Origin: Actinomycetales bacterium
GTDB lineage: Bacteria; Actinomycetota; Actinomycetes; S36-B12; UBA5976
Length of the DNA stretch: 64,000 nt
Reading direction: 5' to 3'
NCBI GenBank assembly: GCA_018969715.1
Contig: JAGWXT010000004.1
Span: 1-64,000, forward strand
Shown: one piece after another, positions 14,227 through 47,670 of the stretch
How the letters are laid out: each line of letters starts with the position of its first letter
Numbering within the stretch: the first letter of the stretch is position 1
Notes under the pieces: model-generated
What the model was told of the DNA's origin: nothing
Seen by the model: only the letters and a program-made list of their open reading frames with translations
Database searches by the model: none
Translations under genes and position numbers: made by a program

Positions 14227-15273
14227 TCAGTCGGCCTGGACGGCGGCGAGAGCCACCTGCAGGTCGGCGGCGGGTCGGCTGGTGAACTCCCACCAACCCG
14301 TTTCCGCCGCCCCGGGCCGAGGTGCGAGGCGGGGGTCACGGAAGCCCAGCCGCACCGCATGCAGCCACTGGCGGGTCAGCCCGAGCCGCACGGCGAGGGT
14401 CGGGTCGGCTCCATAGCGCAGATCGCCGACGCAGGGATGCCGCAGCGCGGACAGGTGGACCCGGATCTGGTGCGTCCGGCCGGTCTCCAGTTCCAGGTCG
14501 AGCAGGGTGACACCCCGGTATGCCTCCCGCACGGTGTAGTGGGTGACGCTCGGCCGGCCACCGGCGACCACCGCGAACCGGTCGCGCGACCGCGGGTGGC
14601 GGTCGATCGGAGCGTCGATGGTGCCCCGGGTTGGGTCAGGCAGTCCCTGGACGAGCGCCTGATACGCCTTGGCCACCTCCCGGTGCCGGAACTGGTCCTT
14701 CAATGCGGTGTAGGCCGCACTCGTGCGCGCCACCACCATCAGCCCGGAGGTGCCGACATCGAGCCGGTGAACGATGCCCTCGCGTTCGGCAGCGCCGACC
14801 TGGGCCGGCGGCAGGCCAAGGGCGGTCAGACCCCCCACCACGGTGGGCCCGTGCCAACCGGGGCTCGCGTGGGCGGCGACCCCGGCGGGCTTGTCCACCA
14901 CGATGAAGGCATCCTCGACGCAGACCAGATGGCGCTCATCAAGACCCACCTCGGCCACCGGTTCAACCCCGGGCACGCCCGCTGCGAGGTCGGCCCCGGT
15001 TCCGCCGTCATTGCCCTGGCCCGGTCCGCGGATCCCCGCATCGGGGCCGGCCATCGGTTCATCCCCCAGCCGTGGATCGACCCCGGAGCGCTCGACGCTC
15101 ACGACCTCCCCACCGCGCACCCGCAGTGAGCGGGACAACGGCTCGCCCATGCTGCGCACCGCCCCGGCGTCGATGAGCGCGGCCGCCCGGGTCCGCGAGA
15201 CCCCCATCGCCTCGGCGAGGGCGGTGTCCAGCCGCTGGCCCGCCGATCCGGCCGCGAGGGTTACCGTCGCCAT
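14227..15273 (-). CDS. rluD: RluA/RluD-family 23S rRNA pseudouridine synthase
   Basis: A 348-residue pseudouridine synthase. It has an N-terminal S4 RNA-binding domain (GQRLDTALAEAMGVSRTRAAALIDAGAV) seen here as QRLDTALAEAMGVSRTRAA, and a catalytic domain with VHRLDVGTSGLMVVART, whose aspartate is the nucleophile. ELETGRTHQIRVHL follows near the C-terminus. A hydrophilic insert of about 40 residues (about 70-110) separates the two domains. The ATG at 15273 lies inside the end of lspA (13-base overlap). Confidence 0.92.
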   Translation of the reverse strand: MATVTLAAGSAGQRLDTALAEAMGVSRTRAAALIDAGAVRSMGEPLSRSLRVRGGEVVSVERSGVDPRLGDEPMAGPDAGIRGPGQGNDGGTGADLAAGVPGVEPVAEVGLDERHLVCVEDAFIVVDKPAGVAAHASPGWHGPTVVGGLTALGLPPAQVGAAEREGIVHRLDVGTSGLMVVARTSAAYTALKDQFRHREVAKAYQALVQGLPDPTRGTIDAPIDRHPRSRDRFAVVAGGRPSVTHYTVREAYRGVTLLDLELETGRTHQIRVHLSALRHPCVGDLRYGADPTLAVRLGLTRQWLHAVRLGFRDPRLAPRPGAAETGWWEFTSRPAADLQVALAAVQAD

Positions 15274-15878
15274 GTCGGGGCGACCCCGAGGATGCCGAGG
15301 ATCACAATGGCGACCGCCGAACAGGTGACAGCGCTGTCGGCAACATTGAAGATCGGAAAGTGGGGCAGCCCGAGGAAGTCCACCACGTGTCCGCGCAGGG
15401 GTCCGGGCGACCGGAACACTCGGTCGACGAGATTGCCCAGCGCCCCCCCCAGCAGGCCACCGAGGGCGAATGCCCACGCAAGGTTCGTCACCCGCCGGCC
15501 ATAGCCGAGGATCCCGATGGCGACGGCGACCGCGAGGACGCTGAACAGCAGTGTGAGCCCGGCTGAGGCGCCCAGGCCGAAGGCTGCCCCCGGGTTGCGC
15601 CAGAAGGTCAGCCGCAGCAGGGGCCCGACCTGCTCACCGAGGAGTGCTGGGACGAGGACGATCTCCGGTCGGCCCTCAAGCCGGGCGACCGCCCAGATCT
15701 TGGTCAGCACGTCAAGGACGAGCACCACGGCGGCAACGGTGACGATGACCCGCCAGCGGGCGGGCGGATCGGGCTGCCCGGCTCCCGCCATCGGATCCGG
15801 GGCCGCTGGGCCGGCTCCCGCCATCGGATCCGGGGCCGCTGGGTCGGCTCCCGCCAGCGGATCGCGCGCAGCTGCCAC
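15261..15878 (-). CDS. lspA: Lipoprotein signal peptidase (signal peptidase II)
   Basis: Membrane aspartyl protease that removes the signal peptide of prolipoproteins. Four transmembrane segments follow residue 42. The two catalytic aspartates lie in GNLVDRVFR and FNVADSAV. The 205-residue length exceeds the usual 150-180 because of an N-terminal extension, of about 40 residues before the first helix, made of an 11-residue repeat. Each repeat unit carries an in-frame ATG (residues 1, 19 and 30 are methionine), so the true start could be any of them. It is divergent from ileS and overlaps rluD. Confidence 0.93.
   Translation of the reverse strand: MAAARDPLAGADPAAPDPMAGAGPAAPDPMAGAGQPDPPARWRVIVTVAAVVLVLDVLTKIWAVARLEGRPEIVLVPALLGEQVGPLLRLTFWRNPGAAFGLGASAGLTLLFSVLAVAVAIGILGYGRRVTNLAWAFALGGLLGGALGNLVDRVFRSPGPLRGHVVDFLGLPHFPIFNVADSAVTCSAVAIVILGILGVAPTWRR
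15780..15863 (-). repeat. 33-bp tandem repeat at the 5' end of lspA
   Basis: Two full copies (15780-15812 and 15813-15845), differing at one base, plus a degenerate third of about 18 bases. Each unit encodes DPMAGAGPAAP. Because the period is a multiple of three, copy-number change would lengthen or shorten the N-terminus without a frameshift and would add or remove candidate start codons. Confidence 0.9.
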
Positions 15879-15901: not shown

Positions 15902-15907
15902 TACCCT
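15902..15907 (+). promoter_or_regulatory. Candidate -10 element for ileS
   Basis: TACCCT fits the actinobacterial TAnnnT pattern and sits seven bases before a GTG at 15914. A transcript starting there would begin almost exactly at that GTG, which opens a six-codon reading frame ending at the presumed ileS start. No good -35 is visible. Confidence 0.3.
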
Positions 15908-15930
15908 GAGCCGGTGATCGGGAGCGCGTC

Positions 15931-18900
15931 CTGAGCGTCGGATACCGCGAGGTTCCCGGTCACGTCGACCTCGTGGCAATGGAGCACGCGGTCCTGGAGT
16001 TCTGGCGATCCGAGCAGGTCTTCGCGGCCTCCGTCGCCCGCACGGCCGACGGACCGCTGTGGGTGTTCTACGAGGGCCCGCCCACGGCGAATGGCGCCCC
16101 CGGCGCCCACCACGTCGAGGCACGAGCCTTCAAGGACGTCTTCCCCCGCTATCGCACGATGAAGGGCTATCACGTACCCCGCCGCGCCGGCTGGGACTGC
16201 CATGGGCTGCCGGTTGAACTGTCCGTCGAGAAGGAACTCGGCTTCACCGGCAAGCGCGATATCGAGCAGTACGGCATCGCTCAGTTCAATGACCGGTGCC
16301 GGGAGTCCGTCCAGCGATATGTCGGTCAGTTCCTGGCGATGAGTGAGCGGATGGGCTACTGGGTTGACTACGACCAGGCCTACTGGACGATGAGCCCGCA
16401 GTTCATCGACTCGGTGTGGTGGTCGCTGGCGCGAATCCACGAACGGGGCCTGCTCGTGCGCGACCACCGAGTCGCCCCCTACTGCGCCCGCTGCGGAACC
16501 GGCCTCAGCGATCACGAGGTCGCCCAGGGGTATCGGGACGTCACGGACACCGCCGCCTTCGTCGCCCTGCCCGTGATCGGCCCCCTCGCCGAGGCGTACC
16601 CGGGGCTGGCCCTGCTGGTGTGGACCACAACGCCATGGACGCTGGTTGCCAACACCGCCGTCGGCTTCAACCCGCAGGTCGAATACGTGGTCGCCCGACC
16701 CGGGCCGGGGGGGCCGCTGGCGGGACGTCCGCTCATCGTGGCGGCCCCGCTGCTGGCCTGCTGCGGGCCCGGCGGCGAGGTCATCGCCAGACTGGCGGCA
16801 GCGGACCTGCGTGGCACCCGCTACGAGCCGCCATTTCCCTTCGTCGACCAATCCGTCCACGATCATCAATCCGTCCCCGATGACCAATCCGTCCCCGATG
16901 ACCAATCCGTCCCCGACCCGCAGGTGCCACGCCGAGCGGGAGCGATAACAGCCCTCATGCACTCGGTGATCGACGCGGACTTCGTCACCACCGAGGATGG
17001 CTCCGGTCTGGTGCATCTGGCACCGGCCTTCGGCGCCGAGGACTTCGCCGCCTGCCGGGCCGTCGGCCTGCCCGTGCACAACCCGATCCGGTCGGATGGC
17101 ACCTTCCAGCCCGAACTGCCGCTGATCGGCGGCCGGTTCTTCAAGGAGGCCGATCCCCTGCTGCTGGCCGATCTCGACGCGCGCGGCCTGCTGCTGCGCG
17201 CTGAGCCCTATGAGCACGCCTATCCCCACTGCTGGCGGTGCCACACCCCGCTCATGTACTACGCAACTCCCTCGTGGTACATCCGGACGACCGCAGTGAA
17301 GGAGGCGCTGCTCCGCGAGAACGAGGCGACGGACTTCTTCCCCCCCACCATCAAGCACGGCCGCTACGGCGACTGGCTGGCCCACAACGTCGACTGGGCC
17401 ATCTCTCGGGATCGGTACTGGGGGACCCCGCTGCCGATCTGGATCTGCCCCGCCGGTCACGAGACGGCCGTGACATCCCGGCAGCACCTCGGCGAGCTCA
17501 GCGGCACCGATCAGTCCGCACTCGATCCGCACCGCCCGTTTGTCGATGAGGTGACGCTGCCGTGCCCGACCTGCGGTGAGGATGCGCACCGGGTTGCCCA
17601 GGTCATCGACTGCTGGTACGACTCGGGGGCGATGCCGTTCGCCGCCCTCGGCTATCCCCTGTGCAATGAGGCACAGTTCCACGAGCAGTATCCCGCCGAC
17701 TTCATCTGCGAGGCGGTTGACCAGACCCGCGGCTGGTTCTACACGCTGATGGCGGTCGGCACCCTCGTCTTCGACCGCAACTCCTATCGGGCGGTCGTCA
17801 CCCTCGGCCACATCCTCGACGAGTCGGGGCGCAAGATGAGCAAGAACCTCGGCAACGTCCTGGAGCCGATCCCGTTGATGGACGAACACGGTGCCGATGC
17901 CGTTCGCTGGTTCATGCTCGCCGCCGGCAGCCCGTGGCAGTCACGACGGCTGGGCCACTCGGCTATCGCCGAGGTGGTGCGGCGCACCCTGCTCACCCTG
18001 TGGAGCAGCGCATCGTTCCTCAGCCTCTATGGCCGGCTCGCCGACGGCGATCCCCTTGCCGAGGCCCCGGACATCGCCGACCGGCCGATCCTCGATCGGT
18101 GGGTGCTGGCCCGCACCGCCCGCACTGCCCGCGAGGTCGACGCAGCACTGGCCGAGTACGACTCCGCTGGCGCCGGCCGGCTGATCTCCGACCTCGTCGA
18201 CGAGGTCTCCAACTGGTACGTCCGTCGGACCCGGCGCCGCTTCTGGGAGGGGGATCCCGCGGCACTGGCGACACTGCACAGCGTCCTGCGCACCCTGACC
18301 CTCGTCATGGCGCCGTTCACGCCATTCATCACCGAACGGATCTGGCAGGACCTGTTCCGAACCACGGGTGATGCGACAACCATGTCCGTGCACCTCGCTG
18401 AGTGGCCGCAGTTCCCGCAGCAGGACGTCGACCCGGAGCTGGAGCAGCAGGTGGCGCTCACCCAGCGCCTGGTCCTGCTCGGGCGCGCGGCACGCGCACG
18501 CGGTGGCGTGAAGACGCGCCAGCCACTCGGGCGGGCCCGGGTGTCGGCGCCCGGGTGGGCCCAGCTGCCCGAGGAACTGCGCTCGGAGATCGCCGCCGAG
18601 CTCAATGTCGGCTCGGTGGAGGGCCTCGATGCCGCGGACGGCCTGCTCGACGTCACGGTCCGCCCGAACTTCCGCGCCCTCGGTCGTCGCTTCGGAGCCA
18701 GCACCCCCGCCGTTGCCGCGGCCGTGGCGGCGGCTGACCCCGCCCGGCTCGCCGCGGAACTGCGGCGCCAGCAATGGGCGACCGTCCACGTGCGGGACGA
18801 GGGCTTCCGCCAGCCGGGGCTCCCGCCGGCGTCGGGGGACGTGAGCGAGCAGACCCCGCCGGCGGGATCGACCGGACCGGCCGAGCCGACCTCAGCGGGC

Positions 18901-19308
18901 CACCCCGGCCACCTGGCCGAGGTGAGGATCACCGCCGAGGAGGTGATCCTCACCGAGACTCCCCGCCAGGGCTGGGCGGTTGCAAGCGGCGAGGGCGAGA
19001 CGGTCGCCCTCGACCTCACCGTCGATGACGAACTGCGGGCTGCCGGCCATGCCCGCCAAGCCGTGCGCTTCCTGCAGGAGGCACGCAAGCGTGCCGGCTA
19101 TGCGGTCTCCGATCGCATCGACGTGCAGTGCGCAACCCCGGATCCGCAGGTGCATGCGGCACTGGTGGCGCACCGGGACGCGATTGCTCAGGAGGTGCTC
19201 GCCCGCACGCTGATCGTCAGCGACTGGCCGCTGACACCCCCGGACGGGTCCTTCATGGCCTCGGCCGACGATGCCGAGACCGTGCTCAGCGCCGCGCTCG
19301 TGCGCTGA
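15931..19308 (+). CDS. ileS: Isoleucyl-tRNA synthetase
   Basis: Charges tRNA-Ile; class I synthetase of about 1125 residues. The HIGH-type site is PPTANGAPGAHHVEAR, the editing domain holds LLVWTTTPWTLVANTAVGF, and the KMSKS loop is GRKMSKNLGN. The conserved N-terminal stretch YREVPGHVDLVAMEH starts upstream of the first ATG or GTG in frame (15979, 15973). The only initiator that keeps it is CTG at 15931, with GGGAG six bases before it. Upstream of 15910 the frame is closed by TGA. Residues about 305-328 are an 18-bp repeat insert in the editing domain, and a hydrophilic insert lies near residue 975. Confidence 0.93.
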   Translation: MSVGYREVPGHVDLVAMEHAVLEFWRSEQVFAASVARTADGPLWVFYEGPPTANGAPGAHHVEARAFKDVFPRYRTMKGYHVPRRAGWDCHGLPVELSVEKELGFTGKRDIEQYGIAQFNDRCRESVQRYVGQFLAMSERMGYWVDYDQAYWTMSPQFIDSVWWSLARIHERGLLVRDHRVAPYCARCGTGLSDHEVAQGYRDVTDTAAFVALPVIGPLAEAYPGLALLVWTTTPWTLVANTAVGFNPQVEYVVARPGPGGPLAGRPLIVAAPLLACCGPGGEVIARLAAADLRGTRYEPPFPFVDQSVHDHQSVPDDQSVPDDQSVPDPQVPRRAGAITALMHSVIDADFVTTEDGSGLVHLAPAFGAEDFAACRAVGLPVHNPIRSDGTFQPELPLIGGRFFKEADPLLLADLDARGLLLRAEPYEHAYPHCWRCHTPLMYYATPSWYIRTTAVKEALLRENEATDFFPPTIKHGRYGDWLAHNVDWAISRDRYWGTPLPIWICPAGHETAVTSRQHLGELSGTDQSALDPHRPFVDEVTLPCPTCGEDAHRVAQVIDCWYDSGAMPFAALGYPLCNEAQFHEQYPADFICEAVDQTRGWFYTLMAVGTLVFDRNSYRAVVTLGHILDESGRKMSKNLGNVLEPIPLMDEHGADAVRWFMLAAGSPWQSRRLGHSAIAEVVRRTLLTLWSSASFLSLYGRLADGDPLAEAPDIADRPILDRWVLARTARTAREVDAALAEYDSAGAGRLISDLVDEVSNWYVRRTRRRFWEGDPAALATLHSVLRTLTLVMAPFTPFITERIWQDLFRTTGDATTMSVHLAEWPQFPQQDVDPELEQQVALTQRLVLLGRAARARGGVKTRQPLGRARVSAPGWAQLPEELRSEIAAELNVGSVEGLDAADGLLDVTVRPNFRALGRRFGASTPAVAAAVAAADPARLAAELRRQQWATVHVRDEGFRQPGLPPASGDVSEQTPPAGSTGPAEPTSAGHPGHLAEVRITAEEVILTETPRQGWAVASGEGETVALDLTVDDELRAAGHARQAVRFLQEARKRAGYAVSDRIDVQCATPDPQVHAALVAHRDAIAQEVLARTLIVSDWPLTPPDGSFMASADDAETVLSAALVR
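16843..16914 (+). repeat. 18-bp tandem repeat inside ileS
   Basis: Four consecutive 18-base copies, the last two identical, encoding variants of DDQSVP. They lie between the CP1 editing-domain segments FPFVDQ and the conserved DADFVTTEDGSGLVH. The insert is in frame, hydrophilic and probably an exposed loop. Confidence 0.9.
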
Positions 19309-47042: not shown

Positions 47043-47232
47043 TGGTCACTCCTCATGAGCGCGGACGGACAGGGACGGACGGTGGGGGTGGGCGGTGGGG
47101 GTGGACGGGAGTCGGCGGGAGTGGATGGCGGGCGACGCTGTGGTCGTGCGCACTGGTCCCGCGCCACCTCGGGCTCCGGCGCCGGGGAAGTGCGTCGGAG
47201 CCCGGCGGTGGCGAGGGGCCACTGCACACGGC

Positions 47233-47670
47233 TCACCTGAGCGGCTGGGGGGGCATCACCGCCTCGTCAAGATCAGCGAACGCGGTGTCGGCGCTGGCGA
47301 GGTACGACGCCCACTCCGCCGGCTGCCAGATCTCGGCAGTGACGTTGGCGCCCACGACGACCAGTTCCCGATCAAGCCCGGCGTACTCCCGCAGGGTCGC
47401 CGGCAGCGTGATTCGGCCCTGCCGATCGGGGACTTCGTCCACCGCAGTCGAAAAGAGCACCCGAAGGTACGAACGGACGCGGGCATCGGATCGTGAGGCC
47501 TCGCGCAGGTCATCGGCATAGGCGCGAAACTCGGCCACCGGCCACAGCACGACGCATCGGTCCTGGCCCTTGGTGAGGACGACCCCGGGCGCGAGGGTGT
47601 CACGGAAGCGCGCCGGCAGCACGAGTCGGCCCTTCTCGTCCAGCCGCGGCTGGTGCGTGCCGAGGAGCAC
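47233..47670 (-). CDS. mraZ: Transcriptional regulator MraZ
   Basis: AbrB-like double-SpoVT protein of 145 residues that binds its own promoter and regulates the dcw operon in other bacteria. The two SpoVT halves are visible as PRLDEKGRLVLPARFR and VDEVPDRQGRITLPATLREY, each with its DxxGR core. The GTG start is preceded by an excellent ribosome-binding site (GGGAGGTGA). It is the first dcw gene, so the promoter lies in 47671-47800. Confidence 0.96.
   Translation of the reverse strand: MLLGTHQPRLDEKGRLVLPARFRDTLAPGVVLTKGQDRCVVLWPVAEFRAYADDLREASRSDARVRSYLRVLFSTAVDEVPDRQGRITLPATLREYAGLDRELVVVGANVTAEIWQPAEWASYLASADTAFADLDEAVMPPQPLR

Follow-up and report, generated by a model that had tools for sequence, protein, structure and literature searches.

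An ileS gene without a canonical start codon before its conserved N-terminus, and a candidate CTG start, in an Actinomycetales genome

The window analysed in this work, a stretch of 64,000 nucleotides from an uncultured Actinomycetales bacterium, belongs to a genome of 2.15 Mb (36 contigs, completeness 94.84%), in which it is part of contig 34. Its genus is represented by this one genome and its family by 42 others, while the closest named loci come mostly from uncultured Actinomycetota and in some cases from Candidatus Nanopelagicales. On the forward strand the window carries ileS, the gene for isoleucyl-tRNA synthetase (IleRS), which extends over 15931..19308 and comprises 1125 codons if the CTG at 15931 is its start. 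The frame is intact, without an internal stop across the 1125 codons and with an IleRS match throughout. Read from 15931, the protein matches TIGR00392 with 829.9 bits over profile positions 3-849 of 861 (cut-off 621.4), contains the Pfam domains PF00133 and PF08264, and aligns with solved IleRS structures, e.g., 1ile; by the curated family match, the product is an ordinary isoleucyl-tRNA synthetase. An 18-base tandem repeat of 3.9 copies (16846-16916) lies within ileS and results in a protein insert of repeated DDQSVP. On the reverse strand, the ORF list contains a divergent ORF at 15261..15878 that is putatively lspA-like by its sequence. The N-terminal part of this ORF contains a 33-base tandem repeat (15765-15869, 2.6-3.4 copies) giving repeated APDPMAGAG, and the true start of the ORF may fall within it.

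The ileS frame is limited on its 5' side by an in-frame TGA at 15907-15909, after which it reads GCC GGT GAT CGG GAG CGC GTC CTG AGC GTC GGA TAC CGC GAG GTT CCC GGT CAC GTC GAC CTC GTG. No ATG, GTG or TTG is present in this frame between the TGA and the final GTG (15973..15975), and the second canonical codon is the ATG at 15979. Since GTG 15973 is the first canonical codon, the program-made ORF list opens ileS at that position. A start there would remove the conserved N-terminus, whose codons (GYREVPGHVDL, 15940..15972, forward strand) all lie 5' of it. In 118 rows of relatives, duplicates included, these positions are highly occupied by the same residues (Y in 113, R in 112, V in 110, P in 115, D in 107 and L in 117). 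The gene is thus without a canonical start codon before its conserved N-terminus, as claimed in a preliminary description of this DNA and as borne out both by the reading of the frame and by the relatives described below.

One explanation is that IleRS starts at GTG 15973 or ATG 15979 and that the conservation upstream is a remnant. These are the first canonical codons, and the family profile drops by only about 3 bits without the residues upstream of GTG 15973 (827.0 bits, from profile position 11). Nevertheless, neither codon has a GGAG-type core in range, the nearest GAGG to the GTG being 20 nt upstream; the residues upstream of it match conserved positions; and in all relatives read the canonical codon lies farther upstream. 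Because the conserved beginning of IleRS sits between the TGA and GTG 15973, a start at this GTG is very unlikely, and the remnant explanation as a whole appears very doubtful. We looked for relatives with an ATG or GTG at the position of 15973 and no conservation upstream, and found the opposite. The truncated start at GTG 15973 was rejected on the grounds of its missing binding site and the conservation upstream of it.

The relatives set the window apart. Among 110 distinct ileS 5' regions, a canonical start (ATG, GTG or TTG) precedes the conserved tyrosine in 109, with the window as the sole exception; this count leaves out two paralogues (L002 and L085) as well as the locus L113/L126 of genome G019, where the beginning of the gene is masked by a run of N. 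In the order, all 102 readable further loci have a canonical start, in every case ATG or GTG; they were retained from 106 loci after dropping three without a usable match and L311, whose match begins too late, at a contig end. Genomes G136 and G146, in which the match begins at query residue 87 or later, are outside the order set, and the sets of 110 and 102 regions are not independent, as many of their loci belong to the same genomes. A CTG start shared by relatives was not found, since none of the 109 other distinct regions and none of the 102 order regions is without a canonical start. Within the family, in which no match to ileS was obtained for G016, G036 and G041, the 38 other readable genomes start with ATG (29), GTG (8) or TTG (1), and the distance from start to tyrosine is 1-3 codons in all 38 and 2 codons in 20 of them. 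Judged by these comparisons, the absence of a canonical start in one of the 110 distinct regions, and in none of the 102 of the order, is well beyond chance.

Three near-cognate codons are in frame before the conserved residues, GTC 15928, CTG 15931 and GTC 15937, and the sole GGAG lies 3, 6 and 12 nt upstream of them, respectively. The candidate ribosome-binding site is GGGAG at 15920..15924 on the forward strand. In the family, the spacer between a GGAG-type core and the start codon is 4-9 nt in 30 of the 38 genomes, 11 nt in three and 13 nt in three, with no core in the remaining two. The 6-nt spacer of the CTG (15931..15933) falls within the range of 4-9 nt, and the comparison with the family therefore favors CTG 15931, as no other near-cognate codon here is spaced as well from the ribosome-binding site. 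As a measure of chance, a GGAG-type core is found at such a distance before 8.2% of the CTG triplets of the window (230/2795), and a 5-base core before 1.5% (42/2795). The preliminary description had placed the ileS start upstream of GTG 15973, with CTG 15931 as best candidate, a proposal that gains support from the relatives and from the ribosome-binding site. Its statement that the CTG is the only initiator including the N-terminus held in part: the sole GGAG is best placed for this codon, but GTC 15928 and GTC 15937 are also in frame, and the second of them, located at the homologous start position, had been overlooked.

GTC 15937 (15937..15939, forward strand) is in fact the main rival within the explanation by a non-canonical start, with a product beginning fMet-Gly-Tyr-Arg-Glu-Val-Pro. 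It stands 2 codons before the tyrosine, the homologous site at which 20 of the 38 family relatives start, whereas CTG 15931 stands 4 codons before it and the family starts 1-3, so that in this respect the GTC fits better. The distance from the -10-like element TACCCT (15902..15907, forward strand) to GTC 15937 is 29 nt, inside the 26-36 nt seen in relatives, and that to the CTG is 23 nt. In addition, GTC is a proven start codon in an actinobacterium, namely in sigR of Streptomyces (PMC5472188). The 12-nt spacer between GGAG and GTC 15937 argues against it, given the 4-9 nt of most family members, even though values of 11 and 13 nt do occur there, and we regard initiation at GTC 15937 as unlikely, if a genuine contender. 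The efficiency of CTG as a start codon also has to be considered. Initiation from CTG in Escherichia coli amounts to 0.86% of that from AUG, and CTG makes up 0.024% of bacterial start codons (PMC11497404). Such poor efficiency is awkward for an essential gene and counts against a CTG start. On balance, the translation of ileS from the non-canonical CTG 15931, as a weak start, seems to us marginally better than an even proposition.

Should ileS start at CTG 15931, it would be an intact housekeeping gene with a short leader, presumably transcribed from a promoter with TACCCT as its -10 element, in which GGGAG 15920-15924 would direct initiation at the CTG. This codon would be read by the initiator tRNA, its initiation would probably be weaker than that from ATG and sensitive to IF3, and the weak start would represent a lineage-specific change, not a conserved device. 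After removal of fMet, the predicted IleRS would begin with SVGYREVPGHVDL. A literature search at the level of record listings found no report of an ileS gene started by CTG.

A different origin for the missing start is that one base of this assembly is wrong in the consensus, or represents a rare variant, and so masks an ATG, GTG or TTG like that of all relatives. The isolation of the window among the 110 distinct regions, to which the order adds 102 out of 102 with a canonical start, is in line with this idea, as is the presence, at the right place, of codons that a single substitution would make canonical; moreover, the genus has no second genome to compare. Because the CTG is not shared by relatives and the genus is known from one genome, an error or private mutation is not separable from a fixed start. 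The quality of the assembly was surveyed by comparing 751,887 bases of the source genome with 800,000 bases from G028, a relative, which gave 162 best gene pairs, 109 of them usable after filtering against antisense shadow ORFs. No gene was split between frames among the 162 pairs. With respect to indels the assembly thus appears clean, and this is an argument against an error, although substitutions are outside the scope of a frame-break check. Among the 109 usable pairs, ileS was the sole clear gene on the source side with a conserved N-terminus upstream of every canonical codon; the survey flagged six genes, and the five besides ileS rest on 3-8 columns with 1-2 identities. As no other clear case was seen in the 109 pairs, CTG starts are not broadly used in this genome.

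The infC gene of the same genome also weighs against an error, since it makes real non-canonical starts likely in the source genome. It was located by PF05198 (locus L207, C4 of the source genome, near 15288-15497), and no ATG, GTG or TTG was found in frame before its conserved N-terminus. Its apparent start is ATC, in ATC AGC GAC GAG CCA CGG, behind GGAGG, and an ATC start has been described for infC of Streptomyces (PMC5472188). Apparently, therefore, ileS would not be alone in this genome in using a non-canonical start, and infC is a positive control, in which a known kind of non-canonical start is visible by the same reasoning as that applied to ileS. Taken with this evidence, a masked canonical start is improbable, yet by no means negligible.

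Upstream of the CTG, the GTG at 15914 opens a six-codon frame, GTG ATC GGG AGC GCG TCC TGA (15914..15934, forward strand), which is not conserved in relatives and is probably not functional. Its stop (TGA, 15932-15934) overlaps CTG 15931 in the sequence CTGA. The preliminary description had correctly located this frame, the overlapping TGA, TACCCT, and GGGAG 6 nt before the CTG, and it had offered two ways in which the GTG could serve ileS. Both gain from the fact that the GTG follows the -10-like hexamer by 7 nt, as a possible leaderless start site would, and from the finding that Mycobacterium smegmatis translates any mRNA beginning with ATG or GTG and that leaderless GTG is efficient in mycobacteria (PMC4633059).

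In the first, the frame of GTG 15914 is fused to ileS by a frameshift, either programmed or caused by an indel error. The absence of frame breaks in the 162 gene pairs makes a frameshift unlikely; in addition, no ribosome-binding site is within range of GTG 15914, and its distance to the tyrosine is about 10 codons, as compared with 1-3 codons in all 38 family starts. We consider this fusion highly improbable, and a frameshift from GTG 15914 was rejected on the family start distance and the unbroken frames. In the second, the frame acts as a leaderless micro-ORF, and ribosomes that terminate on it reinitiate at the CTG with which its stop overlaps (CTGA). Inspection by eye, however, revealed no ATG or GTG 5-9 nt after the hexamer in any of the 15 relatives in which TATCCT, TATCGT or TATTCT lies 26-36 nt ahead of the start. 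The helix proposed to occlude the binding site did not exceed shuffled sequences in strength: the predicted fold of 15914-15990 pairs the GGGAG leader with early ileS codons, with z -0.53 against shuffles. Coupling to the micro-ORF did not survive this comparison and has very little probability; the six-codon frame is most likely due to chance.

The same hexamers inform the promoter of ileS. Of the 31 relatives without a T-box core, 15 carry TATCCT, TATCGT or TATTCT at a distance of 26-36 nt from the start, and for this reason TACCCT is probably the -10 element of the ileS promoter. A scan for the two-hexamer sigma-70 consensus found no ileS promoter.

Regulation of ileS by a translational T-box has been described in several Actinobacteria (PMC1262725); such a T-box acts on ileS at translation initiation. 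The ileS of the window differs from these genes in that the T-box core GGNACCGCG is absent within 260 nt upstream, no Rfam T-box was found before the gene either at the gathering score or at a relaxed E-value, and the leader, as we place it, would be too short for one. Rfam likewise gave no T-box at the gathering score in 20 relative loci, even though 9-base cores are present in several, and the Rfam model seems to miss these forms of the T-box. For this reason the core motif was used for T-box calls; its chance rate is low, with some 12 occurrences expected in 64 kb when both strands are counted. The loci with a core and no Rfam signal, among the 20 searched, were L004, L006, L007, L087, L093, L101 and L105.

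By this criterion, 20 of the 39 family loci counted (in the set of L087-L125 and L001) have a T-box core upstream of ileS, and all 20 start with ATG. Of the 19 family loci without a core, 10 have a non-ATG start, i.e., GTG, TTG or, in the window, no canonical start (Fisher p 1.5e-4, kinship ignored). The pattern is uncorrected for descent and involves few lineages: four genera supply the non-ATG starts, and two the cores. In the closest-locus set outside the family count, eight T-box carriers have non-ATG starts (six TTG and two GTG), and there the link fails; in the order-wide set, all 11 carriers start with ATG and 8 of the 91 loci without a T-box start with GTG. The link between weak start codons and a missing T-box within the family is thus a lead, not a result. 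A possible scenario is that the T-box was lost and that the start codon then came to throttle IleRS synthesis, the CTG placing it, like that of infC, under the influence of IF3 and of initiation fidelity, perhaps with the aid of ribosomes that end the leaderless six-codon ORF, which contains an isoleucine codon, at the overlapping TGA. We consider this scenario quite improbable. The coincidence of weak starts and T-box loss in one family nonetheless provides a testable idea on how ileS control may be replaced.

Rare non-canonical starts are already known, and ileS would add a case, witnessed by one genome. The infC gene, with its ATT or ATC start and autoregulation by IF3 in E. coli and Streptomyces, resembles ileS in being an essential translation gene with a non-canonical start and a good ribosome-binding site. 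Its start is known to regulate (PMC5472188), whereas the CTG of ileS is known from a single genome. The GTC start of Streptomyces sigR, repressed by IF3, is conserved across Streptomyces and has been proven by mutation (PMC5472188). Like ileS, sigR belongs to an actinobacterium and has no canonical start codon where its protein truly begins; unlike the GTC of sigR, the putative CTG start of ileS is not conserved. If the CTG is real, ileS would be a rare example of an essential synthetase gene that starts at a near-cognate codon, and initiation fidelity could then be a means of its control. In practical terms, gene finders limited to ATG, GTG and TTG would annotate the ileS of this window without its conserved N-terminus.

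Elsewhere in the window, an mraW RNA (RF01746) was identified at 47134-47237 on the reverse strand, with 55.6 bits, over the gathering score.
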